From contig CACOCT010000007.1 of NCBI GenBank assembly GCA_902625845.1, positions 1 to 40,806 on the forward strand: a DNA stretch of 40,806 nt, given 5' to 3'. How positions within the stretch are numbered: position 1 is the first letter of the stretch; each line of letters begins with the position of its first letter. Made by a program: the position numbers and the translations under genes. Positions 28,907 through 40,806 of this stretch are shown here, piece by piece. The DNA comes from an uncultured Prochlorococcus sp. (lineage in GTDB: Bacteria > Cyanobacteriota > Cyanobacteriia > PCC-6307 > Cyanobiaceae). Under the pieces are notes generated by a model. The model was not told the DNA's origin and did not search any database. It saw nothing but the letters and a program-made list of their open reading frames with translations.

Positions 28907-29716
28907 TCATCCAAATTTACCTGATATGTATTCCTGAGTGGTCTTTTGCTTTGGAGAATTAAATATTTTCTTTGTTGAGTTAAATTCTGCAAGATAACCT
29001 ACTTTCCCACCATCACCATCTTCATATTCAATAGCATTGAAAAATGCAGTCATATCACTAACTCTTAGCGCCTGTTGCATATTATGCGTGACGATTATTA
29101 TCGTGTACTTCTTCTTTAGTTCGTGCATTGTTTCTTCTATTTTTAAAGTTGAAATAGGATCTAATGCTGAGCATGGCTCGTCCATAAGTATTATTTCAGG
29201 TTCAATTGAGATGGTGCGAGCAATACATAATCTTTGTTGTTGTCCACCAGATAAAGAATAACCACTATCATTTAATTTATCCTTACATTCGTCCCATAAA
29301 GCAGCTTTTCTTAGTGAACTTTCAACTAATTCATCCATATCACCAGCAAAGCCATTAATTCTTGCTCCAAATGCAATATTTTCGTAGATAGATTTAGGAA
29401 AAGGATTAGGTTGTTGAAAGACCATCCCAATTCTTCTTCTCACTTCAACTGGATCTACTCTTTTGTCATAAATATTAGTTCCATCAAAAATAACTGTACC
29501 TTTCAAAGAACAATTGGGAATTAAATCATTCATTCTATTTAAAGATCTTAATACGGTAGATTTACCGCAACCAGAAGGTCCTATAAGAGAAGTTATATTT
29601 CCTTTTTTGAAGTTACAAAAAACATTTCTTACAGCTTGAAAAGTTCCATAGCTAATAGAGACATTATCAAGAGATAAAATAATATTCTTTAGAGTTTTTT
29701 TGTTTGTTTTAATCAT
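28907..29716 (-). CDS. pstB: phosphate ABC transporter ATP-binding protein
   Basis: PstB powers high-affinity phosphate uptake. The 269-residue protein has Walker [10 protein letters not shown] (about residues 42-50), the PstB-specific [10 protein letters not shown] segment, Q-loop FQQPNPFP, signature LSGGQQQR, Walker [17 protein letters not shown] and the switch VTHNMQQA. The C-terminal [18 protein letters not shown] is the standard PstB ending. It abuts pstA directly, at the end of the minus-strand pstC-pstA-pstB operon. Confidence 0.97.
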
Positions 29717-30610
29717 TTATACCCTCTTTGTTTTCTCAGTAAAAGCAGCCAATATCCTTGAAAATATATTTACTGATAATATCGACAAAACAAGAATAAA
29801 GGAAGCTGCCCAGGCTAGTTTATTCTGGGCATCATATGGTTCTAGAGCAAAGTTATATATCAATACTGCTAAAGAACCCATCTCGTAAAATAAATCTCCA
29901 AAACCTGTTATGTAGTAATAAGAAAATAAAGCGGTAAAAATCAAAGGTGCCGTCTCGCCCGCTGCTCTTGCAATACCAAGAACAATTCCTGTAGCAATAG
30001 ATCTAAATGCAGAAGGTAAAGTTACTTTTAATATCGTTGTATACATACTTGCTCCAACACCAAGAGAGGCGTATCTTAATTCATTCGGAACTAACTTTAA
30101 ACCTTCGTCAGTTGTTTTTATTACTGTAGGTAGCATCAATATTGAAAGCGCCATTCCTCCCGCAAAACCACTATACATACTTCCAAATAAAATTTTAGTT
30201 GAAACTATTAGGGCATAAATAAATACACCTGCAATTATTGAAGGAACTCCAGCTAAAACATTAACTCCAAATCTAATAAATCTTGAGAAAGGTCCCCCTT
30301 TTGAATATTCAGCTAGATATATACCACCACCAACTCCTACAGGTATTGCAATAATTGAGGCAATAGTAGTAATAATTAATGTCCCGATTAATGCCGGATT
30401 AATACCTCCAGCATCTAAATCATCTCCAGGAGGATTTGGTTCTAACGTAAAAAGTTCTAGTGTAATTTGAGATCCGCCTTTAATAAGAATATAAGTTACA
30501 AGAAAAATCAAGGGAAGTATCGCAATCAATGCACAAATTACTGATAAAGAAGTAAAAAATTTATCTCCTACATTTCTTGATAATCTTTTCTGGTAATAAA
30601 GTGAATTCAT
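29717..30610 (-). CDS. pstA: phosphate ABC transporter permease
   Basis: PstA, 297 residues, forms with PstC the channel of the phosphate importer. It has six predicted membrane helices, the first at about residues 22-44. The loop LEPNPPGDDLDAGGINPALI and the binding-protein-dependent permease EAA-type motif (LRYASLGVGASMYTTILKVT, then LPSA) are recognisable. The segment ARAAGETAPLIFTALF is a PstA hallmark. It starts 6 bases after pstC and ends against pstB. Confidence 0.96.
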   Translation of the reverse strand: MNSLYYQKRLSRNVGDKFFTSLSVICALIAILPLIFLVTYILIKGGSQITLELFTLEPNPPGDDLDAGGINPALIGTLIITTIASIIAIPVGVGGGIYLAEYSKGGPFSRFIRFGVNVLAGVPSIIAGVFIYALIVSTKILFGSMYSGFAGGMALSILMLPTVIKTTDEGLKLVPNELRYASLGVGASMYTTILKVTLPSAFRSIATGIVLGIARAAGETAPLIFTALFSYYYITGFGDLFYEMGSLAVLIYNFALEPYDAQNKLAWAASFILVLSILSVNIFSRILAAFTEKTKRV

Positions 30611-30616
30611 AATTAT

Positions 30617-31564
30617 CTAATATTTGAGACTAAATTTCTTAACTAGCCACTGTGCAAAGATATTAACCACTAATGATAAAATCATTAGTACAAAAGCTGC
30701 ATAAAAGAGTGATGAGACCTGACTTCCATCAGCTTCACCAAACTGGTTTGCAAGCATTGAGGAGATGGTATATCCAGGGGATAATAGAGACAAACTAAAT
30801 GCATTGGAATTACCAATAATCATTGTGACAGCCATGGTTTCACCCATTGCCCTACCTAAAGCTAATAAAACACCCGCCATAATTCCTGATAATGCTGCAG
30901 GCAAGATTACTGAAAATATAGTTTTCCATCTACTTGCTCCAATTCCATAGGCTGCATTTCTGAGCTTTTTAGGTACTTGATTAAGAGAATCTCTGGCGAT
31001 AGAGGTAACTATAGGCAAAAGCATTACAACTAAAATCAATATGGCTAAAAAGGAATTCCTGCCTGTGGGTTCTGTGCTGAATAAAGGTATCCATCCAAAG
31101 AAATTATGTAATAAGATAAAAAATTCTCTGAGAAAAGGTTCCATAACAAATATTGCCCAGAGACCTAATACAACTGATGGTATAGCTGCAAGTAATTCAA
31201 CAAAAGAACCTATTATTTCTCTAAAAACATTAGGTACAAAGTCCTCGGTAATAAATATTGCAGTTCCAACCCCCAAAGGAATAGTTATTAATAACGAAAG
31301 AAATGAAGTTACTAATGTCCCATATATTGCGCTAAAAGCTCCGTATTCATCTTTTACTGGATTCCATTCAGAGGTGACTAAAAATTTTAATCCATACCTT
31401 GAAAAGGATTCAAATGACTGAAAAAAGACTACTAAAATAATTCCTAAAAGTATTATTGCTACGAAACTAGACAAAACTAGAGCAGTATTCTTGAAGATAA
31501 TATCTATATTTTTTTCGATACCGAATCTTTTACGATTCTTGAAAAGAGCTAATTTCTCTTCCAT
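30617..31564 (-). CDS. pstC: phosphate ABC transporter permease
   Basis: PstC, 315 residues, is the second phosphate permease subunit. It has an N-terminal cytoplasmic segment and six membrane helices. Recognisable parts are the loop TSEWNPVKDEYGAFSAIYGT, PLGVGTAIFITE, the EAA motif LRNAAYGIGASRWKTIFSVI (then LPAA) and GRAMGETMAVTMIIGNS, all typical of PstC. It is the first gene of the pstCAB unit and follows arsR by 80 bases on the same strand. No clear Pho box is visible in that gap. Confidence 0.96.
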   Translation of the reverse strand: MEEKLALFKNRKRFGIEKNIDIIFKNTALVLSSFVAIILLGIILVVFFQSFESFSRYGLKFLVTSEWNPVKDEYGAFSAIYGTLVTSFLSLLITIPLGVGTAIFITEDFVPNVFREIIGSFVELLAAIPSVVLGLWAIFVMEPFLREFFILLHNFFGWIPLFSTEPTGRNSFLAILILVVMLLPIVTSIARDSLNQVPKKLRNAAYGIGASRWKTIFSVILPAALSGIMAGVLLALGRAMGETMAVTMIIGNSNAFSLSLLSPGYTISSMLANQFGEADGSQVSSLFYAAFVLMILSLVVNIFAQWLVKKFSLKY

Positions 31565-31644
31565 TAAAAAAAGAATATCTCTATAAATCTACTACTAAAT
31601 GAGCAAAAAGAGTTTCAAAAAAATCAAAACATTTTAATATTTGA

Positions 31645-31968
31645 TTATTCACAAGTTCTCTTATTCAATGATGACTCAATTAAATTGCTCATCCAACTTT
31701 TAATATCTGATAAAACTTCTAAATCTAGTTTGTAGTAGACCCATCTACCTTCTTGCCTATCAGTAATAAGTCCTGAATCTTTAAGTATCTTTATGTGATA
31801 GGAGATTTTTGACTGTGACAACCCTGTGACTTTGACTATGTCGCAAACACATATCTCACCACCCATCATTAATTCAAGAATATTTATTCTAGTTGGATCA
31901 GAGAGAGACTCCATTATTCCAATAAACTGTTTACTATTTATTTTTTTAAGTTGCTCTAACAAGACCAA
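31645..31968 (-). CDS. arsR: ArsR-family metalloregulator
   Basis: A 107-residue winged-helix repressor. It has SDPTRINILELMMGGEICVC (helix alpha3 with the Cys-Val-Cys arsenic-binding motif), followed by the recognition helix VTGLSQSKISYHIKILKDSG and the wing RQEGRWVYYKL. ArsR proteins leave their operators when arsenite binds the cysteines. The start is a TTG at 31968. It diverges from the GAPDH-arsJ pair across 109 bases holding two palindromes likely to be its operators, so autoregulation is probable. The matching palindromes upstream of pstS suggest a second target. It lies directly upstream of pstCAB. Confidence 0.92.
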   Translation of the reverse strand: MVLLEQLKKINSKQFIGIMESLSDPTRINILELMMGGEICVCDIVKVTGLSQSKISYHIKILKDSGLITDRQEGRWVYYKLDLEVLSDIKSWMSNLIESSLNKRTCE

Positions 31969-32013: not shown

Positions 32014-32056
32014 ACATCAAAAATTATTGATGTATCAATTATTTTTGATATATAAT
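32014..32056 (+). promoter_or_regulatory. GAPDH/arsJ promoter with two ArsR-type operators
   Basis: Palindrome 1 is ACATCAA-N6-TTGATGT (32014-32033) and palindrome 2 is TATCAA-N6-TTGATA (32033-32050), with centres 18 bases apart. The right arm of palindrome 1 provides a -35 (TTGATG, 32027-32032). After 18 bases comes a perfect -10, TATAAT (32051-32056). Palindrome 2 fills the spacer. Binding of a dimeric repressor to either would block RNA polymerase. The gene starts at 32078. The architecture is seen; ArsR as the binder is inferred from the adjacent divergent arsR. Confidence 0.75.
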
Positions 32057-32077: not shown

Positions 32078-33106
32078 ATGAAAATTGGAATTAACGGATT
32101 TGGAAGAATTGGTAGGTTAGTTTTAAGAATTTTATGGGAAAGAAAAGATATAGAAATAACTCATATAAATGAGATTAAAGGGGATTCTTTTATTGCATCT
32201 CATTTACTAGGATTTGATTCTGTTCATGGTAAATGGAATAAAAATATAACTTCGAATGACAATGAAATAATAATTGAAGGTAAAAAAATTTCCTTTACAT
32301 CAAAAAAGAACTATCTTGATGTTCCATGGAAAAAATCTTCGGTTGATCTTATTTTGGAATGTACAGGGAGAAACAAAGCTCCCGAAGAATTAAATCCATA
32401 CTTTGATTCTCTTGGAATAAAAAAAGTTATAGTTGCTTGTCCAATAAAAGGAATTGTGGGAGGGGAACAAGCACTTAATATTGTTTATGGAATTAATCAT
32501 ACCCTTTATAAACCTAAAAAACATAAATTAATTACAGCAGCATCCTGTACTACAAATTGCTTGGCTCCCATCGTAAAAGTTGTTAATGAAAATTTCTCAA
32601 TTAAACATGGGGCTATAACAACTATTCATGACGTTACTAATACACAAGCTCCAGTAGATTTTTACAAAAGTGACTTGAGAAGAGCAAGAGGATGTATGCA
32701 AAGCTTAATACCTACTACAACTGGATCAGCTAAAGCGATTGCTGAAATTTTCCCAGAATTAGATGGAAAACTAAATGGTCATGCAGTTAGGGTTCCACTT
32801 CTAAACGCCTCATTAACCGATGTAGTTTTTGAATTAAATATGGAAGTCAATGAAGAGCAAGTAAATAATGAATTTAAAAAAGCATCTGAAACATACTTAA
32901 AAGGTATTCTTGGATACGAGGAGAGACCCTTAGTATCTGCTGATTACGTAAATGACACTAGAAGTTCAATAATTGATGGACTTTCAACTATGGTTATAAA
33001 TTCAAATTTATTAAAAGTTTATGCTTGGTATGATAATGAGTGGGGTTATAGTTGCAGGCTTGCAGATCTTGCTTCTTATGTAATTGAGAAAGAAAATAAA
33101 TTTTAG
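32078..33106 (+). CDS. gap1: glyceraldehyde-3-phosphate dehydrogenase, arsenate-detoxification type
   Basis: A 342-residue GAPDH. It has the Rossmann motif GFGRIGR (7-13), catalytic Cys157 in SCTTNC with His in TIHDVTNTQ, the phosphate-site TTTGSAKA and the C-terminal WYDNEWGYSCRL. The next gene is ArsJ. In such pairs GAPDH uses arsenate in place of phosphate to form the unstable 1-arseno-3-phosphoglycerate, which ArsJ exports. Its own ArsR-type promoter and the pst neighbours support this role rather than a housekeeping one. The gene symbol follows common usage in Prochlorococcus. Confidence 0.93.
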   Translation: MKIGINGFGRIGRLVLRILWERKDIEITHINEIKGDSFIASHLLGFDSVHGKWNKNITSNDNEIIIEGKKISFTSKKNYLDVPWKKSSVDLILECTGRNKAPEELNPYFDSLGIKKVIVACPIKGIVGGEQALNIVYGINHTLYKPKKHKLITAASCTTNCLAPIVKVVNENFSIKHGAITTIHDVTNTQAPVDFYKSDLRRARGCMQSLIPTTTGSAKAIAEIFPELDGKLNGHAVRVPLLNASLTDVVFELNMEVNEEQVNNEFKKASETYLKGILGYEERPLVSADYVNDTRSSIIDGLSTMVINSNLLKVYAWYDNEWGYSCRLADLASYVIEKENKF

Positions 33107-33111
33107 TTTTT

Positions 33112-34368
33112 ATGAAGTTATCTAGCCTTCAACAATATAGTGTCGTTACCGCAAATTATTGGGCATTTACTCTTACTGACGGTGGATTGAGAATACTAGT
33201 TGTTGGTCATTTTCATGAACTTGGTTATTCAACTCTACAAATTGCATTACTTTTTCTTTTCTATGAATTTTTTGGTATAATGACGAACCTTTATGGAGGA
33301 TGGGTAGGAGCGAGATATGGTTTAAGGCTTACTTTATGGATAGGGACAATTCTGCAAATTATTGCTCTTTTTATGCTGATTCCAGTCAAAGATAATTGGC
33401 CAGTAATCTTTAGTGTCTCATACGTTATGTTTGCTCAAGCACTGAGTGGTGTAGCAAAAGATCTCAATAAAATGAGTGCAAAAAGTGCTGTAAAATCAAT
33501 AGTTCCAATTTCAGAAGAAAATAATCAAAATATTCAAAAAAAATTATTTAAGTGGGTTTCAATTTTAACAGGATCTAAAAATTTACTTAAGGGTATTGGT
33601 TTTTTCCTAGGGGGTCTCTTGTATAAGCTATTTGGCTTTAATAATGCTGTTGGAATTATGGGTTTAGGCCTATGTCTCGCATTCTTTTTAACTTTGTGTC
33701 TTCCTAAAGATTCAGGAAAAATGAAAAGGAAGCCTTTATTTAAAGACCTTTATTCCAAGTCTAAAGGTATAAATATTCTCTCAAGTGCAAGATTTTTCTT
33801 GTTTGGAGCAAGAGATATCTGGTTTGTAGTAGCTCTTCCAGTCTTTTTAGATATTTCTTTTGGATGGGATTACTTAAAAATAGGTCTTTTCTTGGGTGGA
33901 TGGATAATAATCTATGGATTCTTTCAAGTATTAGCTCCATTACTTAGAAAATTATGGAAGAAAAAAAATAGCCCAACAAAAACAACCATTCAATTTTGGG
34001 GACTTATTTTGACAGTTATTCCATTATTTATTGCTGTAGCTTTAAACGATGATAAATCATTAGGGCCTGTAATTATTATTGGATTAATAATATTTGGCTT
34101 TATTTTTGCAATGAATTCATCTACTCATTCATACTTGATTTTGGCTTATTCAGATAATGAGAAAGTAAGTTTAAATGTTGGTTATTACTATATGGCTAAT
34201 GCAGCGGGAAGATTATTTGGGACCCTTCTATCTGGCTTATTATTTATGCTCGGTAAAAATGCCACTATAGGTATGCAGTATTGTTTATGTACTTCGTCTA
34301 TTTTGATTTTTATTGCTTGGATTACTAGTTCTAAATTACCTTCCTATTCTTCCAACAGCCTCAATTGA
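33112..34368 (+). CDS. arsJ: ArsJ-type organoarsenical efflux transporter (MFS)
   Basis: A 418-residue major facilitator protein with about 11-12 membrane helices. The N-terminus (VVTANYWAFTLTDGGLRILV, then VGHFHELGYSTLQIALLFLF) and LYGGWVGARYGLRLTLW are characteristic of ArsJ. It is the exporter of 1-arseno-3-phosphoglycerate formed by the GAPDH encoded 5 bases upstream. The conserved GAPDH-ArsJ pairing and ArsR-like control make the assignment strong. The last 33 bases overlap the 3' end of the convergent pstS gene. Confidence 0.92.
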   Translation: MKLSSLQQYSVVTANYWAFTLTDGGLRILVVGHFHELGYSTLQIALLFLFYEFFGIMTNLYGGWVGARYGLRLTLWIGTILQIIALFMLIPVKDNWPVIFSVSYVMFAQALSGVAKDLNKMSAKSAVKSIVPISEENNQNIQKKLFKWVSILTGSKNLLKGIGFFLGGLLYKLFGFNNAVGIMGLGLCLAFFLTLCLPKDSGKMKRKPLFKDLYSKSKGINILSSARFFLFGARDIWFVVALPVFLDISFGWDYLKIGLFLGGWIIIYGFFQVLAPLLRKLWKKKNSPTKTTIQFWGLILTVIPLFIAVALNDDKSLGPVIIIGLIIFGFIFAMNSSTHSYLILAYSDNEKVSLNVGYYYMANAAGRLFGTLLSGLLFMLGKNATIGMQYCLCTSSILIFIAWITSSKLPSYSSNSLN

Positions 34369-35301
34369 TTTTTTTAAAATACCTCCTTTCAAAGGAACGA
34401 AACCTAGATCAGGAGCTTTTGATTGGTATTCATCACTGAGCAATTTATAGAATGTATCTTGAATTGCTTTGGCATTCTTACCATTTCCCGTTTCATAAGC
34501 AAGTATCCAAGTTAAGGTTGCTATTGGATATGCTCCTTTAGCAGTAGGGTTCGGATTCCTACCAGCCAAGTTCTCATCAAGATTTATTCCATTTAAAGCT
34601 ATTGCTCCTGATTCAGGATTCGGAATAACAAAATCACCTGATAAATTTTGAAGTGCAGCTGCTTGAATATTACCTTTTATATAAGATTGATTAACATAGC
34701 CAATAGATCCTGGAGTATTTTGTATCACTCCAGCGACACCAGGATTACCTTTTGCTCCAATTCCTGAGGGCCACTTAACAGATTTACCATTACCTAAATT
34801 CCAAGTTTTAGAAAACGCTTCCATTGAACTTGTAAAAGCTTTAGTGGTTCCTGATCCATCAGAACGGTGGACCCAAGTCAATTTACCAGGGGAACATCCC
34901 AATTCCTTCCAATCTTTTATGATTCCCATCGCTACTTGAACAGATTGCTCTTGAGTTAATTTCAAATCACAATCATAGTTATAACCGAAAGCGATAGTAC
35001 CTCCTACCATTGGAATTTGCACTAGGCCTCTTTTAACTTTTTTTATATCAGAATCATTCATTGGGTCATCAGAAGCAGCAAAGTTTACAGTTTCATCAAT
35101 AAATGCCTTTCTTCCAAAACCTGATCCTTTTGACTGATAATTAACCTTAGGTCCTCCTGACCTTGCATAATCAGAAAACCATCTAGTATAAATTTTTGAA
35201 GGGAAAGAGGCTCCTGCACCACTCAATCTAACGGTCGGCGAAGCGCAAGCTGTACAAAATAATAAAGATGAAGAGAGGAGAACTTTCTTGAAAATACTCA
35301 C
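34336..35301 (-). CDS. pstS: phosphate-binding protein, PstS family (lipoprotein)
   Basis: This is the periplasmic phosphate receptor for PstCAB. It has the binding motifs GAGASFPSKIY, QSKGSGFGRKAF, FAASDDPM and HRSDGSGTTKAF, and the family's GNPGVAGVIQNTPGSIGYV segment. I chose the GTG at 35301 because it gives a proper lipoprotein signal (MSIFKKVLLSSSLLFCTAC) of 19 residues and 321 aa in total. A TTG at 35352 would lie only about 15 bases from the predicted -10. Its promoter carries the same paired operators as the GAPDH promoter. It overlaps arsJ tail to tail by 33 bases. Confidence 0.92.
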   Translation of the reverse strand: MSIFKKVLLSSSLLFCTACASPTVRLSGAGASFPSKIYTRWFSDYARSGGPKVNYQSKGSGFGRKAFIDETVNFAASDDPMNDSDIKKVKRGLVQIPMVGGTIAFGYNYDCDLKLTQEQSVQVAMGIIKDWKELGCSPGKLTWVHRSDGSGTTKAFTSSMEAFSKTWNLGNGKSVKWPSGIGAKGNPGVAGVIQNTPGSIGYVNQSYIKGNIQAAALQNLSGDFVIPNPESGAIALNGINLDENLAGRNPNPTAKGAYPIATLTWILAYETGNGKNAKAIQDTFYKLLSDEYQSKAPDLGFVPLKGGILKKSIEAVGRIGR

Positions 35302-35367
35302 GATATCATTACGAATAAAGACACTTCTTTTATAGCATCTAATAAATAACAAAAGGAATAGTAAGGA

Positions 35368-35407
35368 ATTATATCAAATTATTTTGATATAATCAATTAT
35401 TCTTGAT
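35368..35407 (-). promoter_or_regulatory. pstS promoter with two ArsR-type operators
   Basis: On the minus strand a -35 TTGATT (35396-35391), 17-base spacer and -10 TATAAT (35373-35368) are present. One palindrome, TATATCAA-N6-TTGATATA (35370-35391), covers the spacer and part of the -10. A second, ATCAA-N6-TTGAT (35392-35407), includes the -35. Centres are 19 bases apart. The layout copies that of the GAPDH/arsJ promoter, so the same repressor probably acts on both. No Pho box was recognised. Confidence 0.72.
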
Positions 35408-36580: not shown

Positions 36581-37654
36581 CTATGCGAATCCTTTAGATT
36601 GAATCTCTGTTCTAACTTTAAAGTTCCATAAATTTATTCCACCTTCAGAATTAACAGCTGCAATTGCACAATCATCAGGACGCCAAGAAATTGCGGAGAC
36701 AGAATTTCCAGAGAATGCTGCCCCCACAGGATTACCATTACCATTTTTTTCTAGAAAGCTCACAACAACTGAACCATCCCTAGATCCAGAGGCGACAAGC
36801 ATTCCTTTATTTGAGAAAGAGAGACTTGTTACAGGTTGAGTATGATGACCTAATTCACCTGGAATGGTACCTTCTGGTCCATTCCCTTCAAAACTCCATA
36901 CTGTAACTCTTTCACTTCCACCTGTAGCTAATAATGTACCAGTATGATCAAAAGAGATATTACTTGGCTTACAGGGATAACCTGTCATTTCAGCATCATG
37001 CCCTGTGGATCGACGCCAGAAATGTACAGAATTATCTTGACTACCACAAGCAACAATATCCCCATTAGGACTAATAACCATTGAGATTAACGAGCCTTGC
37101 CATTCTAATTTTTGATTAATTTTATTTTTATTTATTTGGTAAAAAGCCACTTGGCCATAACAAGCTGTAGCCAATTCATTATTTGTTGCCCAAGCTATGG
37201 CACTTATGGTACTTGGATGATTTTCTGATCTCCAAATTTCTTGACCTTCTGAATTTAAAACGTACGCATTCTTTGAAAGAGCTACTGATAAATATTTACC
37301 ATCAGGAGAATGCTTCAGATGTTCTACCCATCCTTTACCAATTTCTATTTTTTTTATTTCCTCTCCATCTTCACTTCTCCAAAATCTAACGCATCCATCT
37401 TGGCCGCCAGTTGAAATAATATCTCCATCTAAATTTATAGATATCGCTAATAATCCTCCCTTGTGAACATTATCATTTTTCCAGATAGTATTTCCTTTCA
37501 AAGAATCAAAAGCATAAAGACCTCCAGCTGCGTCACCCACAACAAATATTTTTCCTCCCATTGCCCATCCACAAACAATTGCGTAATCATCAACCTCAGA
37601 GCTCCAACCTTCATGGAGCATTCCTCTTGGTAAAAATGGCTCTATATTAGACAT
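36581..37654 (-). CDS. WD40-repeat protein of the zinc cluster
   Basis: A 357-residue beta-propeller protein. About seven repeats are visible by their terminal WD-like pairs (FDSLKGNTIWKND; GCVRFWRSEDGE; NSVHFWRRSTG; ERVTVWSFEGNG; GSVVVSFLEKN; GGINLWNFKV) and by GH/SG starts such as ISTGGQDG and VASGSRDG. There is no signal peptide, so it is probably cytoplasmic. Its start overlaps the end of the COG0523 GTPase gene by 13 bases, a sign of tight co-expression. It may be a scaffold for metal delivery; this is inferred only from context. Confidence 0.9.
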   Translation of the reverse strand: MSNIEPFLPRGMLHEGWSSEVDDYAIVCGWAMGGKIFVVGDAAGGLYAFDSLKGNTIWKNDNVHKGGLLAISINLDGDIISTGGQDGCVRFWRSEDGEEIKKIEIGKGWVEHLKHSPDGKYLSVALSKNAYVLNSEGQEIWRSENHPSTISAIAWATNNELATACYGQVAFYQINKNKINQKLEWQGSLISMVISPNGDIVACGSQDNSVHFWRRSTGHDAEMTGYPCKPSNISFDHTGTLLATGGSERVTVWSFEGNGPEGTIPGELGHHTQPVTSLSFSNKGMLVASGSRDGSVVVSFLEKNGNGNPVGAAFSGNSVSAISWRPDDCAIAAVNSEGGINLWNFKVRTEIQSKGFA

Positions 37655-39000
37655 TTATCAAAATCTTTCTGCATTTGCTCTTCATCAAGATTTCGACCAA
37701 TGAAAACCAATTGATTTTTTCGAGATTCATCACCCCACTCCTTATCTGGTTGAGCTGTAAATAACATATGAACACCCTGGAATACTATACGTTTTGGATT
37801 ACCTGCATAACTTATAAAACCTTTTGTTCTAAAAATATCAACTCCTTTTTCAGCAAGTAATTTACCCATCCAAGTATTTAATTTCTCAGGATCAACATCC
37901 CCATCTCTTTCGATTGCTATTGAACCAACCTCATCATCATGTTCATGCTCTGCTACCCATATTCTTTCACTTTCAGGTAATATAATTTTCCCAGAATTTG
38001 GTTCATTTAAACTCTTCAACTTAATTTCAAATTCTTCTGCAGTATGTTGCGTGAAAAGTCCAACTTTAGAGGCTTTTTTCTGATCTAAGATAAATCTCTT
38101 ACTGCCTTGACTTTGCAAATTCAAGTTTACATGTTTCTCATACGGGATAATGCTATTTGGTGTTAATTCTTCAGGAGTTTCTGCATAGTATCTAACACAA
38201 GATTCAGCACCTTCTTTTAATTCATCTTCAGTACATCCTTGATCCAATATCGCCACTAAAGACATTTCTGGATCGGGTCCTTCTTCAAGAATTAATTCAT
38301 ACTTGCCTTCTTCCAAAGAAAATACACCACTCCACTCAAAAGGATATTCAGGTTCTAGAAAACTAGGCCTCCTTTTAAGGACTTCATCAAGATCAAAAGC
38401 GCTAAGATTTAAAACTGTTTCTACTGGTACATCTGCTTGCTTTGCTCGAATAATACGAGTCATACGATTCATATCTTTCAGCCTTGATTCAATATTTGTT
38501 AGTGCTTCATCGGATACCAAATCAGTCTTATTAAGAACGATTACATCAGCGAAAGCAACTTGCTCAGAGCTCTCGTTGCTGCGTCCTAGCTGTTGATCAA
38601 TATGAGCTGCATCTACAAGAGTAACGATCCCATCTAATGTAAATTCTGAACTTATTTCTTCATCCATAAAGAAAGTTTGAGCCACAGGGCCAGGATCAGC
38701 TAAGCCAGTAGTCTCAACTAAAACATAGTCAAACTTATCTCTTCTTTTCATTAAATTACCGAGAACTCTTATAAGGTCTCCTCGAACAGTACAACAAATA
38801 CAACCATTTGACATTTCAAAGACTTCTTCATCAGCATCAATTACAAGACCCTGATCTATGCCAACTTCACCATATTCATTTTCAATGACTGCAATTTTTT
38901 TTCCATGCTCCTCTCCTAAAATCCTATTAAGAAGAGTAGTTTTACCAGATCCTAAAAAGCCTGTAAGAATAGTAACTGGAACCTTATTATCAGAATTCAT
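37642..39000 (-). CDS. COG0523/CobW-family GTPase with an inserted extra domain
   Basis: A G3E GTPase of the metallochaperone group. From the ATG at 39000 it reads MNSDNKVPVTILTGFLGSGK (Walker A), ENEYGEVGID, the metal-binding CxCC (NGCICCTVRGDL), Walker B-like VLVETTGLADP, and NKTD for guanine. A C-terminal CobW domain includes the segment KGFISYAGNPKRIVFQGVHM. Between the two halves (38340 to about 38017) lies an insert, FEWSGVFSLEEGKYELILEE to LFTQHTAEEFE, resembling the duplicated domain of the neighbouring ZnuA-like protein. An acidic His element, HEHDDE, follows. The TTG at 39021 is a less likely start. Confidence 0.92.
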   Translation of the reverse strand: MNSDNKVPVTILTGFLGSGKTTLLNRILGEEHGKKIAVIENEYGEVGIDQGLVIDADEEVFEMSNGCICCTVRGDLIRVLGNLMKRRDKFDYVLVETTGLADPGPVAQTFFMDEEISSEFTLDGIVTLVDAAHIDQQLGRSNESSEQVAFADVIVLNKTDLVSDEALTNIESRLKDMNRMTRIIRAKQADVPVETVLNLSAFDLDEVLKRRPSFLEPEYPFEWSGVFSLEEGKYELILEEGPDPEMSLVAILDQGCTEDELKEGAESCVRYYAETPEELTPNSIIPYEKHVNLNLQSQGSKRFILDQKKASKVGLFTQHTAEEFEIKLKSLNEPNSGKIILPESERIWVAEHEHDDEVGSIAIERDGDVDPEKLNTWMGKLLAEKGVDIFRTKGFISYAGNPKRIVFQGVHMLFTAQPDKEWGDESRKNQLVFIGRNLDEEQMQKDFDKCLI

Positions 39001-39004
39001 AATT

Positions 39005-39073
39005 AAATGGTTTTCAATCAATTAATCTACTGTTTAATATAGTTTAGAAAATTAGAAAATGAAAACCATTTCA
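39005..39073. promoter_or_regulatory. 12-bp inverted repeat with Zur-box-like palindrome upstream of the COG0523 GTPase gene
   Basis: AAATGGTTTTCA (39005-39016) and TGAAAACCATTT (39060-39071) are perfect inverted copies in the gap between the ZnuA-like stop and the GTPase start. The second copy extends to TGAAA-N4-TTTCA (39060-39073), similar to Zur operators, which resemble TGAAAAT-N-ATTTTCA. A TATATT element lies between the copies on the minus strand. Zur control is inferred from zinc-linked neighbours. Confidence 0.45.
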
Positions 39074-39083
39074 ATAAACTAAT

Positions 39084-40806
39084 TCAATTAGATAGCGAAT
39101 TCCACTTATTCTCAAGCTCAATTCCTAACTTTTTATCACATGCCCCCCCTAATGAATTAACTATTGTGCAAGTATTATGTACAGCAACGGAAATAGTATT
39201 ACCTTGGGGCATTAATCCATCTACAAATATTTGATCTTTTGCAAGAGGTATTGAACTCAGCCTACTTAAATTATTAAGTAATTTAGAAACAGGCTTTTGC
39301 TCAGGGAAAAGAGCTTTTACATTATCTTCTTTTAATTCGTTTAAAACTGAACTATAAGTTTCAGGTCTTAAACTAGTAGAATCTCCCAAAGTGTCTAATA
39401 AACTTATAGTTTCAAAACCATATGCTGCACCATAGTAATCCATGGCTTTATGCTTGGAGACTATAACTTTATTTGAGGCAGGGATAGTAGCTACTTGCTC
39501 AAAAGCCCATTTATTTAAACTAGTTAGAATTGAATTAACAGTATCAATTCTCTCGTTTATTAATTTCCTATCACTTCTATTAAAGATAGAAATATCTTTT
39601 TTAAGACTATTTCCAATAACAGAAGTCATTTTTTTGATATTACTTGGATCATGCCATATATGAGGATCTAAAGAACCATGGCCATGATGGTGGTGATGAT
39701 GCCCATCTCCCTCGTCTGGAATTTGAGCGATAGGTTCTATATCAATTCTAGAAATATCCTTTAAAAAATGTTCATCCGCTTCAAATTCAAAGGGCATATG
39801 TTCAGTAAAAATTGTATATTTACCGCTCTCTTTAATCTCTAAATTAAATACCGTCGAATCTTTATCTTGATCAAAATTTAAAGAATAAGCTGCTTTACTT
39901 GCTTCAAGAATATCATTATTAAATTTACTAATGGAGTTATCAGATTCCAATAATTCTGATGCCATTTTCTCAGATTGTTCTATATCTTCAGATTGAATTA
40001 TCACCATCTTCATTGCAGGATCAGCATATTCTCCATCAACTTTTGCAAAGGTCCATGTGTATTTTCCTTTTTGAAGGTCGAAAGTTCCTGCCCATTCAAA
40101 AGCTTCAGAACCATGATCAGAGTGTCCTGAATGATCATCATGATCGTCATGACCTCCAACCTCTGGTTCTTGAGAAATAGGCTCAATATCAACCCTTGCA
40201 AGATCCTTTAAAAAATGTTCATCTGCTTCAAATTCAAAGGGCATATGCTCAGTAAAAAATGCATATTGACCATCTTTTTTAATTTTTAAATTAAAAACAG
40301 TTTTATCTTTATTTTGATCAAATTTAAGAGTGTAAGCCTTGTTACTTGGAACTAGAACACCATTATTTTTTTTATTTATAGATTTACTAGCATTAAGTAA
40401 TTCAGAGGCATAATCTTCTGAAGCTTCTATATCACTAGATTCTAAAATAACCATTTTCATTGCAGGATCTGCATAATCTCCATCAACTTTTGCAAATGAC
40501 CATGTGTAATTTCCTGCTCTTAAATCGAAAACACCAGCCCATTCAAAAGCACCTGAATTTCCTGAGGGATTTTCAACATCAATTGCACTAACCCCAACAA
40601 CAACTGTTTGAGATTTTTCTTCCCAATTTCTCATCGCGGGGGTCATCTCTTTCCCAAGAGTAAAAACTTTATCAGCGTTACTAAGTGATTGTTTTTGCCT
40701 TGGATTGATTTTTAAATCATGTACATCTTCCTTTCTACCAACTAAGCATTTAACTTGATCAGAAGGAAGAGCTATTGACTTTACAAGATCACAGGCTAGA
40801 GGTTCA
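39084..40806 (-). CDS. ZnuA-like zinc-binding protein with two tandem inserted domains; N-terminus beyond window
   Basis: The frame is open to the right edge, so the signal peptide is missing. Visible parts include CLVGRKEDVHDLKINPRQKQ, TLGKEMTPAMRNWEEK and the metal-site LDPHIWHDPSN, typical of periplasmic zinc receptors, and the C-terminal lobe from SVIGNSLKKDIS to IVNSLGGACDKKLG. Where ZnuA has a His-rich loop, this protein carries two copies of a domain of about 125 residues (FEWAG.FDL..G.YTW.FAKV; ADPAMKMVI; FFTEHMPFEFEADEHFLKD), each followed by a His/Asp-rich tail (GGHDDHDDHSGHSDHG; DGHHHHHHGHG). Zinc capture for a ZnuABC importer is likely. Confidence 0.88.
   Translation of the reverse strand, partial: EPLACDLVKSIALPSDQVKCLVGRKEDVHDLKINPRQKQSLSNADKVFTLGKEMTPAMRNWEEKSQTVVVGVSAIDVENPSGNSGAFEWAGVFDLRAGNYTWSFAKVDGDYADPAMKMVILESSDIEASEDYASELLNASKSINKKNNGVLVPSNKAYTLKFDQNKDKTVFNLKIKKDGQYAFFTEHMPFEFEADEHFLKDLARVDIEPISQEPEVGGHDDHDDHSGHSDHGSEAFEWAGTFDLQKGKYTWTFAKVDGEYADPAMKMVIIQSEDIEQSEKMASELLESDNSISKFNNDILEASKAAYSLNFDQDKDSTVFNLEIKESGKYTIFTEHMPFEFEADEHFLKDISRIDIEPIAQIPDEGDGHHHHHHGHGSLDPHIWHDPSNIKKMTSVIGNSLKKDISIFNRSDRKLINERIDTVNSILTSLNKWAFEQVATIPASNKVIVSKHKAMDYYGAAYGFETISLLDTLGDSTSLRPETYSSVLNELKEDNVKALFPEQKPVSKLLNNLSRLSSIPLAKDQIFVDGLMPQGNTISVAVHNTCTIVNSLGGACDKKLGIELENKWNSLSN
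39717..40100 (-). repeat. second copy of the internal domain repeat in the znuA-like gene
   Basis: Encodes FEWAGTFDLQKGKYTWTFAK through FLKDISRIDIEPIAQIP, followed by the poly-His linker. It is near-identical to the first copy in the KVDG.YADPAMKMVI and EHMPFEFEADEHFLKD blocks and more divergent in the middle (residues around 225-250 of the visible protein). Confidence 0.85.
40167..40544 (-). repeat. first copy of the internal domain repeat in the znuA-like gene
   Basis: Encodes FEWAGVFDLRAGNYTWSFAK through FLKDLARVDIEPISQE. It aligns with the copy at 39717-40100 at a period of about 444 bases. DNA identity is high, notably in the stretch encoding EHMPFEFEADEHFLKD, so the duplication is recent or kept alike by gene conversion. 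Confidence 0.85.

Follow-up and report, generated by a model that had tools for sequence, protein, structure and literature searches.

Upstream of pstS, the gene for the phosphate-binding protein of this uncultured Prochlorococcus, two perfect ATCAA-N6-TTGAT palindromes lie 19 bp apart, and a second exact pair, 18 bp apart, occupies the region between arsR and gap. Judging from sequence comparison, we put a probability of roughly 0.8 on the explanation that pstS and gap-arsJ are both controlled by the adjacently encoded ArsR and released by arsenite, forming a cassette that stands as an alternative to PhoB control in strains without PhoB. In the window, i.e., the whole stretch of 40,806 nucleotides that was analyzed, the gene order is pstB, pstA, pstC, and arsR (all on the minus strand), gap and arsJ (plus strand), and pstS and a potassium-channel gene (minus strand). 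The named loci closest to it come almost entirely from Prochlorococcus. The relevant features are the following.

28907 to 29716, minus strand: pstB, phosphate transporter ATPase (TIGR00972 above cutoff)
29717 to 30610, minus strand: pstA, phosphate permease (from position, sequence, and a tblastn match to pstA of related pst loci)
30617 to 31564, minus strand: pstC, phosphate permease, lying after arsR in the same orientation (TIGR02138 above cutoff)
31623 to 31638, minus strand: degenerate ArsR-type palindrome between arsR and pstC with one mismatch (ATTAAaatgttTTGAT), exact in sister loci
31645 to 31968, minus strand: arsR, ArsR/SmtB repressor with a CVC motif and a C-terminal cysteine (PF01022 and NF033788 above cutoff; alignment)
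32016 to 32031, plus strand: first predicted ArsR-type operator between arsR and gap, whose TTGATG is the gap -35
32034 to 32049, plus strand: second predicted ArsR-type operator between arsR and gap, in an 18-bp register
32051 to 32056, plus strand: TATAAT of the gap promoter, shared by most relatives within the genus, with either type of cassette
32078 to 33106, plus strand: gap, ArsJ-associated glyceraldehyde-3-phosphate dehydrogenase (NF033735, 537 bits versus a cutoff of 450)
33112 to 34368, plus strand: arsJ, organoarsenical efflux MFS transporter (NF033734, 545 bits versus a cutoff of 400)
34336 to 35301, minus strand: pstS, phosphate-binding protein (TIGR00975 above cutoff)
35329 to 35337, minus strand: TGCTATAAA, conserved extended -10-like element of pstS, in 45 of 45 related promoters
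35368 to 35373, minus strand: TATAAT touching the proximal pstS operator, in this genome only (1 of 45 related promoters)
35373 to 35388, minus strand: predicted proximal ArsR-type operator of pstS, an exact palindrome in a 19-bp register with the distal one
35392 to 35407, minus strand: predicted distal ArsR-type operator of pstS, an exact palindrome reading ATCAAGAATAATTGAT on the pstS strand

The genes flanking the palindromes belong to an arsenate efflux system of the GAPDH/ArsJ kind, as gap and arsJ are adjacent and both score above curated cutoffs. The winged-helix domain of ArsR matched PF01022 with an E value of 1.6e-17 and NF033788 with 91.8 bits against a cutoff of 55. The CVC motif, which holds the cysteine ligands of As(III), was present in every aligned ArsR sequence; the R773 pattern has a third cysteine, which is absent here, and a C-terminal cysteine occurred in nearly all sequences. 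Each of the 15 near-complete genomes tried (15/15) contained one ArsC-family protein, so that, going by predicted function, intracellular arsenite formation is possible. For pstS, the GTG at 35301 appears to be a more likely start than the listed TTG at 35352, in agreement with the relatives, which start at the aligned ATG. The arsJ and pstS genes are convergent, and their 3' ends overlap by 33 bp (34336 to 34368).

The palindromes before pstS are located at 35373 to 35388 (ATCAAATTATTTTGAT) and 35392 to 35407 (ATCAATTATTCTTGAT), and those of the arsR-gap intergenic region, two exact copies within the repressor's own gene cluster, at 32016 to 32031 and 32034 to 32049. The name "ArsR-type" is sound because ATCAA-N6-TTGAT is the published core ArsR binding motif (PMC9137774). 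The earlier note had claimed that such palindromes are paired at only two places, before gap/arsJ and before pstS, and a scan of the window's genome (1.18 Mb, about 66% complete) bore this out: among 20 exact single palindromes, only the four at pstS and gap form pairs. Chance rates were taken from first-order Markov genomes of equal size and the same dinucleotide makeup, in which exact single sites averaged 9.2, compared with the 20 observed, and paired sites were absent from all 25 simulated genomes, compared with two pairs in the real one. When two mismatches were allowed, the window showed no enrichment of the motif (82 found versus 83 expected); it is the exactness and the pairing that are unusual about these palindromes. 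The other 16 single exact sites comprise 12 inside open reading frames (ORFs) and four in intergenic regions. One exact palindrome (L001:1501-1516; G000:C1:22137-22152) elsewhere in the genome sits at the very start of a 343-amino-acid ORF, a possible further ArsR target, with 11 bp between the first base of the palindrome and the ORF start.

The note had also proposed looking for the motif in sister strains, and there the pstS pair proved consistently conserved. We divided 68 same-genus genomes into type 1, with an ArsR at least 85% identical to that of the window, and type 2, with an ArsR 53 to 58% identical to it; 17 genomes were of type 1 and 33 of type 2, and neither type was found in 18. 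No genome among the 68 carried both (Fisher P of about 1e-6, uncorrected for relatedness). Two double operators were found in exactly the 17 type-1 genomes, each of which has exactly two pairs, and in the 16 type-1 relatives examined and in the window, one of these is an intact 19-bp pair at the pstS next to arsJ-gap. With operators that are conserved and co-occur with ArsR in 17/17 type-1 genomes, pstS falls within the predicted ArsR regulon. Among named type-1 ars-linked pstS loci with upstream DNA, 36 of 37 have the exact pair, and the remaining one (L078) has one intact site; the position of the distal operator does not vary among the ars-linked pstS promoters of type 1. Mean consensus in type-1 pstS promoters was 0.59 in the upstream flank versus 0.82 to 0.96 in the operator spacers, the operator arms being exact by selection in this comparison. 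Conversely, type-1-like pstS promoters in genomes where a type-1 ArsR was not found had an intact pair in 0 of 5 cases (Fisher P of 4e-5, uncorrected for relatedness), namely, in G270, G393, G382, G397, and G345, the last of which has a type-2 ArsR. G398 seemed to be an exception, but the contig stops just past gap, and the missing arsR has probably just not been assembled. Three loci from incomplete single-cell genomes (L082, L087, and L095) kept the intact pair with arsR not found, possibly for reasons of missing sequence. Since promoter and arsR travel as one cassette, the co-occurrence of operator and ArsR is in part linkage. The upstream regions of pstS in L092 and L046 differ by one 19-bp operator unit, which suggests that direct repeats have allowed a complete unit to be gained or lost.

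The phasing of the sites extends beyond the genus. Several other genera of the family have pstS genes located next to arsJ or arsR that carry double or triple operators in the 19-bp register, and every double pstS operator that we saw, other genera included, follows 19-bp phasing; in the triple operators, the extra site is located 18 bp further out. At gap in the other genera, the pairs are spaced at 18 bp, and the flanking sequence is unrelated. Some gap-operator spacings of 19 bp appeared in one tally and were discarded as probably truncated loci, the aligned promoters showing 18 bp. This gene-specific phasing across genera is, at the level of sequence, the clearest indication that the sites are functional at pstS itself, and we consider the pstS operator pair, which is real and conserved, very probably functional. 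Three consecutive operators in an 18- and then 19-bp register precede pstS in L016, L028, L031, and L032, which belong to other picocyanobacterial genera. The idea of a phage-borne pstS under ArsR was dropped: 29 viral stretches had loose double palindromes, and none encoded relatives of pstS, arsR, gap, or arsJ.

The two promoters differ in how the operators relate to the core elements. According to the earlier note, one palindrome at each promoter contributes the -35 and the other fills the spacer before a perfect TATAAT. This geometry is indeed present at both promoters of the window: gap has TTGATG (32027 to 32032), 18 bp, and TATAAT (32051 to 32056), and pstS has, on the minus strand, TTGATT (35396 to 35391) as a possible -35, 17 bp, and TATAAT (35373 to 35368). 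At gap, where TATAAT directly follows the second operator in the window and in most relatives within the genus, the predicted layout is that of a classic repressor sitting over its promoter. At pstS, however, the overlapping TATAAT is peculiar to the window (1/45), and what all 45 distinct related pstS promoters share is TGNTATAAA (35337 to 35329 in the window), about 35 bp further downstream. Because some 38 bp separate the proximal operator from this conserved -10, repression of pstS would be less direct than that of gap: the relatives may rely on a weak promoter (TTGATT, 17 bp, TGTATT), or else ArsR acts from upstream. Between the operators and the conserved -10 TATAAA, 42 of 45 type-1 pstS promoters (e.g., L156 and L171) carry TTCTTAAYCTTTG, which resembles one Pho half-site, though PhoB is absent.

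The note's further statement that pstCAB lacks the site does not hold as written. A palindrome with one mismatch is located at 31638 to 31623, between arsR and pstC. Just after the arsR stop codon, this palindrome is exact in five sister loci (L047, L051, L091, L220, and L221), has one mismatch in the window and in L049, L078, L083, and L088, and is lost in L046 and L056. Upstream of pstC, loci without the type-1 cassette feature a Pho-box-like CTTTAACCcctCTTAAAGT, similar to the box predicted for pstC of MED4, whereas in type-1 loci with the cassette inside the pst operon this box is gone and the palindrome is present. Loci from genomes in which no PhoB was seen likewise retain the Pho-like box upstream of pstC. 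Given that arsR and pstCAB lie on one strand and are 80 bp apart, cotranscription from the arsR promoter is possible. Of the note's interpretation, the core, that ArsR controls pstS together with gap-arsJ, is well supported by sequence comparison (perfect co-occurrence with the type-1 ArsR, cross-genus phasing, 0/5 intact pairs without that ArsR, and the motif of PMC9137774); the overlapping pstS TATAAT, peculiar to the window, and a clean exclusion of pstCAB are not borne out as written.

A different arrangement was found in genomes with the type-2 ArsR, whose cassette (e.g., L251) unites arsR, gap, arsJ, chrA, pstS, phoR, and phoB. Its gap promoter has the palindromes, sometimes in decayed form; its pstS promoter has no ArsR-type palindromes and instead harbors TTAAG repeats in tandem, which are recognized as Pho boxes by scoring. 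Using a matrix built from the boxes of PMC1906773, we found scores above the shuffled 95% level in 12/12 type-2 versus 0/16 type-1 pstS promoters. A PhoB ortholog was found in 31/33 type-2, 0/17 type-1, and 2/18 other genomes (P values uncorrected for relatedness), and of the 17 type-1 genomes without one, 16 are at least 93% complete, the window's genome being about 66% complete. The link between PhoB and type 2 is physical, with phoB beside pstS in the cassette. Among same-genus relatives, only genomes without PhoB have the cassette with ArsR operators in front of pstS; neither this nor the use of Pho boxes by the other cassette figured in the earlier reading. The best explanation of this pattern appears to be that the cassette of pstS, arsJ, gap, and arsR is a swappable alternative to the PhoB/Pho-box cassette. 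Types 1 and 2 are thoroughly mixed on an FtsH tree, where they require 13 and 14 changes, close to the number for shuffled labels, indicating that the cassettes have been exchanged many times; when PhoB and the double operator were compared in independent pairs on this tree, the few informative pairs gave a nonsignificant result (median P of 0.25). We also considered whether the window's pstS might be controlled by PhoB as in MED4-like strains, with the palindromes being secondary. While pstS is a classical Pho gene, with Pho boxes predicted for MED4 and MIT9312 (PMC1906773), and while the window's genome is only 66% complete, neither the window, where the best score for tandem Pho boxes with 11-bp spacing was -1.1, nor any of the 16 type-1 promoters gave a Pho-box signal, and PhoB is absent from the type-1 relatives. 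On these grounds, we rejected PhoB control of the window's pstS as hardly credible.

Two further readings accept the palindromes and deny ArsR control of pstS. The pair could be inherited baggage of a spreading cassette, its sites being weakly bound or without effect and the working promoter, TGCTATAAA, lying downstream. The distance of about 38 bp to the conserved -10 and the physical linkage of cassette and promoter agree with this, but the exact arms and the gene-specific 19-bp register persist in different genera despite unrelated flanking sequence, and each of the five genomes without a type-1 ArsR has a damaged pair; because neutral baggage would neither keep its register nor decay where the type-1 ArsR is missing, we regard this reading as unlikely. 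Alternatively, a regulator other than ArsR might use the motif at pstS, as could be surmised from a single ATCAAaataatTTGAT at the pst-operon pstS of G365, G399, and G252, in which no HTH_5 protein was found. These sites are single and differently flanked, however, while the double operator tracks the type-1 ArsR, and every type-1 or type-2 genome checked has one HTH_5 protein over the cutoff, which makes another regulator quite improbable. HTH_5 proteins over the threshold were absent from G365, G399, G252, and G380. The single ATCAAaataatTTGAT before the pst-operon pstS (L182, L213, L214, L207, and others) persists in ArsR-less genomes.

Under control by the adjacent ArsR, the four palindromes would serve as its operators. 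From these sequence patterns we infer that ArsR binds at pstS and represses it, that arsenite releases it, and that discrimination benefits, and the following course of events may be proposed. In the absence of arsenic, ArsR dimers on the paired sites would hold down gap-arsJ and pstS, and probably arsR itself. Arsenate entering the cell would be reduced in part to arsenite, which would bind the CVC cysteines and release ArsR. The derepressed GAPDH/ArsJ route would then export arsenate as 1-arseno-3-phosphoglycerate, and the extra PstS would favor phosphate over arsenate at uptake. As type-1 strains are without PhoB, the amount of PstS may depend in part on arsenic instead of phosphate. It may be speculated, though this is rather unlikely, that in PhoB-less Prochlorococcus ArsR has become the chief transcriptional regulator of phosphate uptake (of pstS and in part of pstCAB, whose Pho box is replaced by an ArsR palindrome), with arsenic or the As:P ratio being read as a proxy for phosphate scarcity.

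The closest known system is that of Agrobacterium tumefaciens 5A, in which ArsR1 controls pstS1/phoB1 (Kang 2012, 2016; PMC7965956). There, two ArsR binding sites were detected by gel shift, and arsenite induces pstS1 8.6- to 14-fold (PMC7965956). As predicted here, ArsR is encoded near a pst cluster and represses pstS. In contrast to the ATCAA-N6-TTGAT sites near the promoter, however, the sites proposed in A. tumefaciens 5A have other motifs and are mostly far upstream of the -10/-35; that strain has PhoB and a separate pst2 locus for phosphate stress, whereas PhoB is absent from the relatives of the window; and it has linked arsenite oxidation genes in place of gap-arsJ. In cyanobacteria, the accessible part of Huertas 2014 (PMC4284471) proposes arsenic coregulation of arsR-pstS-gap3-MFS clusters from gene context; these clusters have the same gene neighbors as the window, and that part of the text mentions no operators, phasing, Pho-box alternative, or PhoB distribution. 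A Prochlorococcus phosphorus acquisition cluster of arsR, mfs, gap1, chrA, phoBR, and pstSCAB (PMC10504305) corresponds to our type-2 cassette (ArsR 53 to 58% identical, chrA and phoBR beside pstS), with Pho boxes and no ArsR pair at pstS, the reverse of the type-1 cassette. In Synechocystis, which likewise has a cyanobacterial ArsR repressor, ArsR answers to arsenite and controls only five genes, and arsenic represses phosphate transport genes, a counterexample to induction (PMC4010505). Its arsR is unlinked and controls Acr3/ArsC genes (arsBHC), in contrast to the gap-arsJ and pstS cassette described here. The Pho boxes predicted for Anabaena alr1094 and Ava_3716 (sphX-gap3; PMC1906773) contain ATCAACTTTTATTGAT and ATCAACTTTTTTTGAT, which are exact ArsR-type palindromes and were probably misread as Pho boxes. 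In the searchable literature, we found no description of ArsR operators in pairs at pstS of Prochlorococcus, nor any report that they alternate with Pho boxes or are confined to genomes lacking PhoB. ArsR control of pstS as such is already known from Agrobacterium, and the arrangement seen here appears to be a variation on it.

Prochlorococcus is the commonest phototroph of the surface ocean, where phosphate is poor and where arsenate and phosphate compete for one shared uptake route. If ArsR indeed sets PstS levels in PhoB-less strains, then for part of the population the pstS transcripts or PstS protein in samples from the sea may be a sign of exposure to arsenic and not of phosphate stress. 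The pair of cassettes further provides a clean, testable case in which, within a single genus, a gene has passed from one regulator to another, unrelated one. Elsewhere in the window, at 37642 to 40646, a CobW-like GTPase adjoins a His-rich protein resembling a metal-binding ABC protein; the His-rich protein contains two copies of an EWAGVFDL... domain, and a similar stretch is found within the CobW-like protein.
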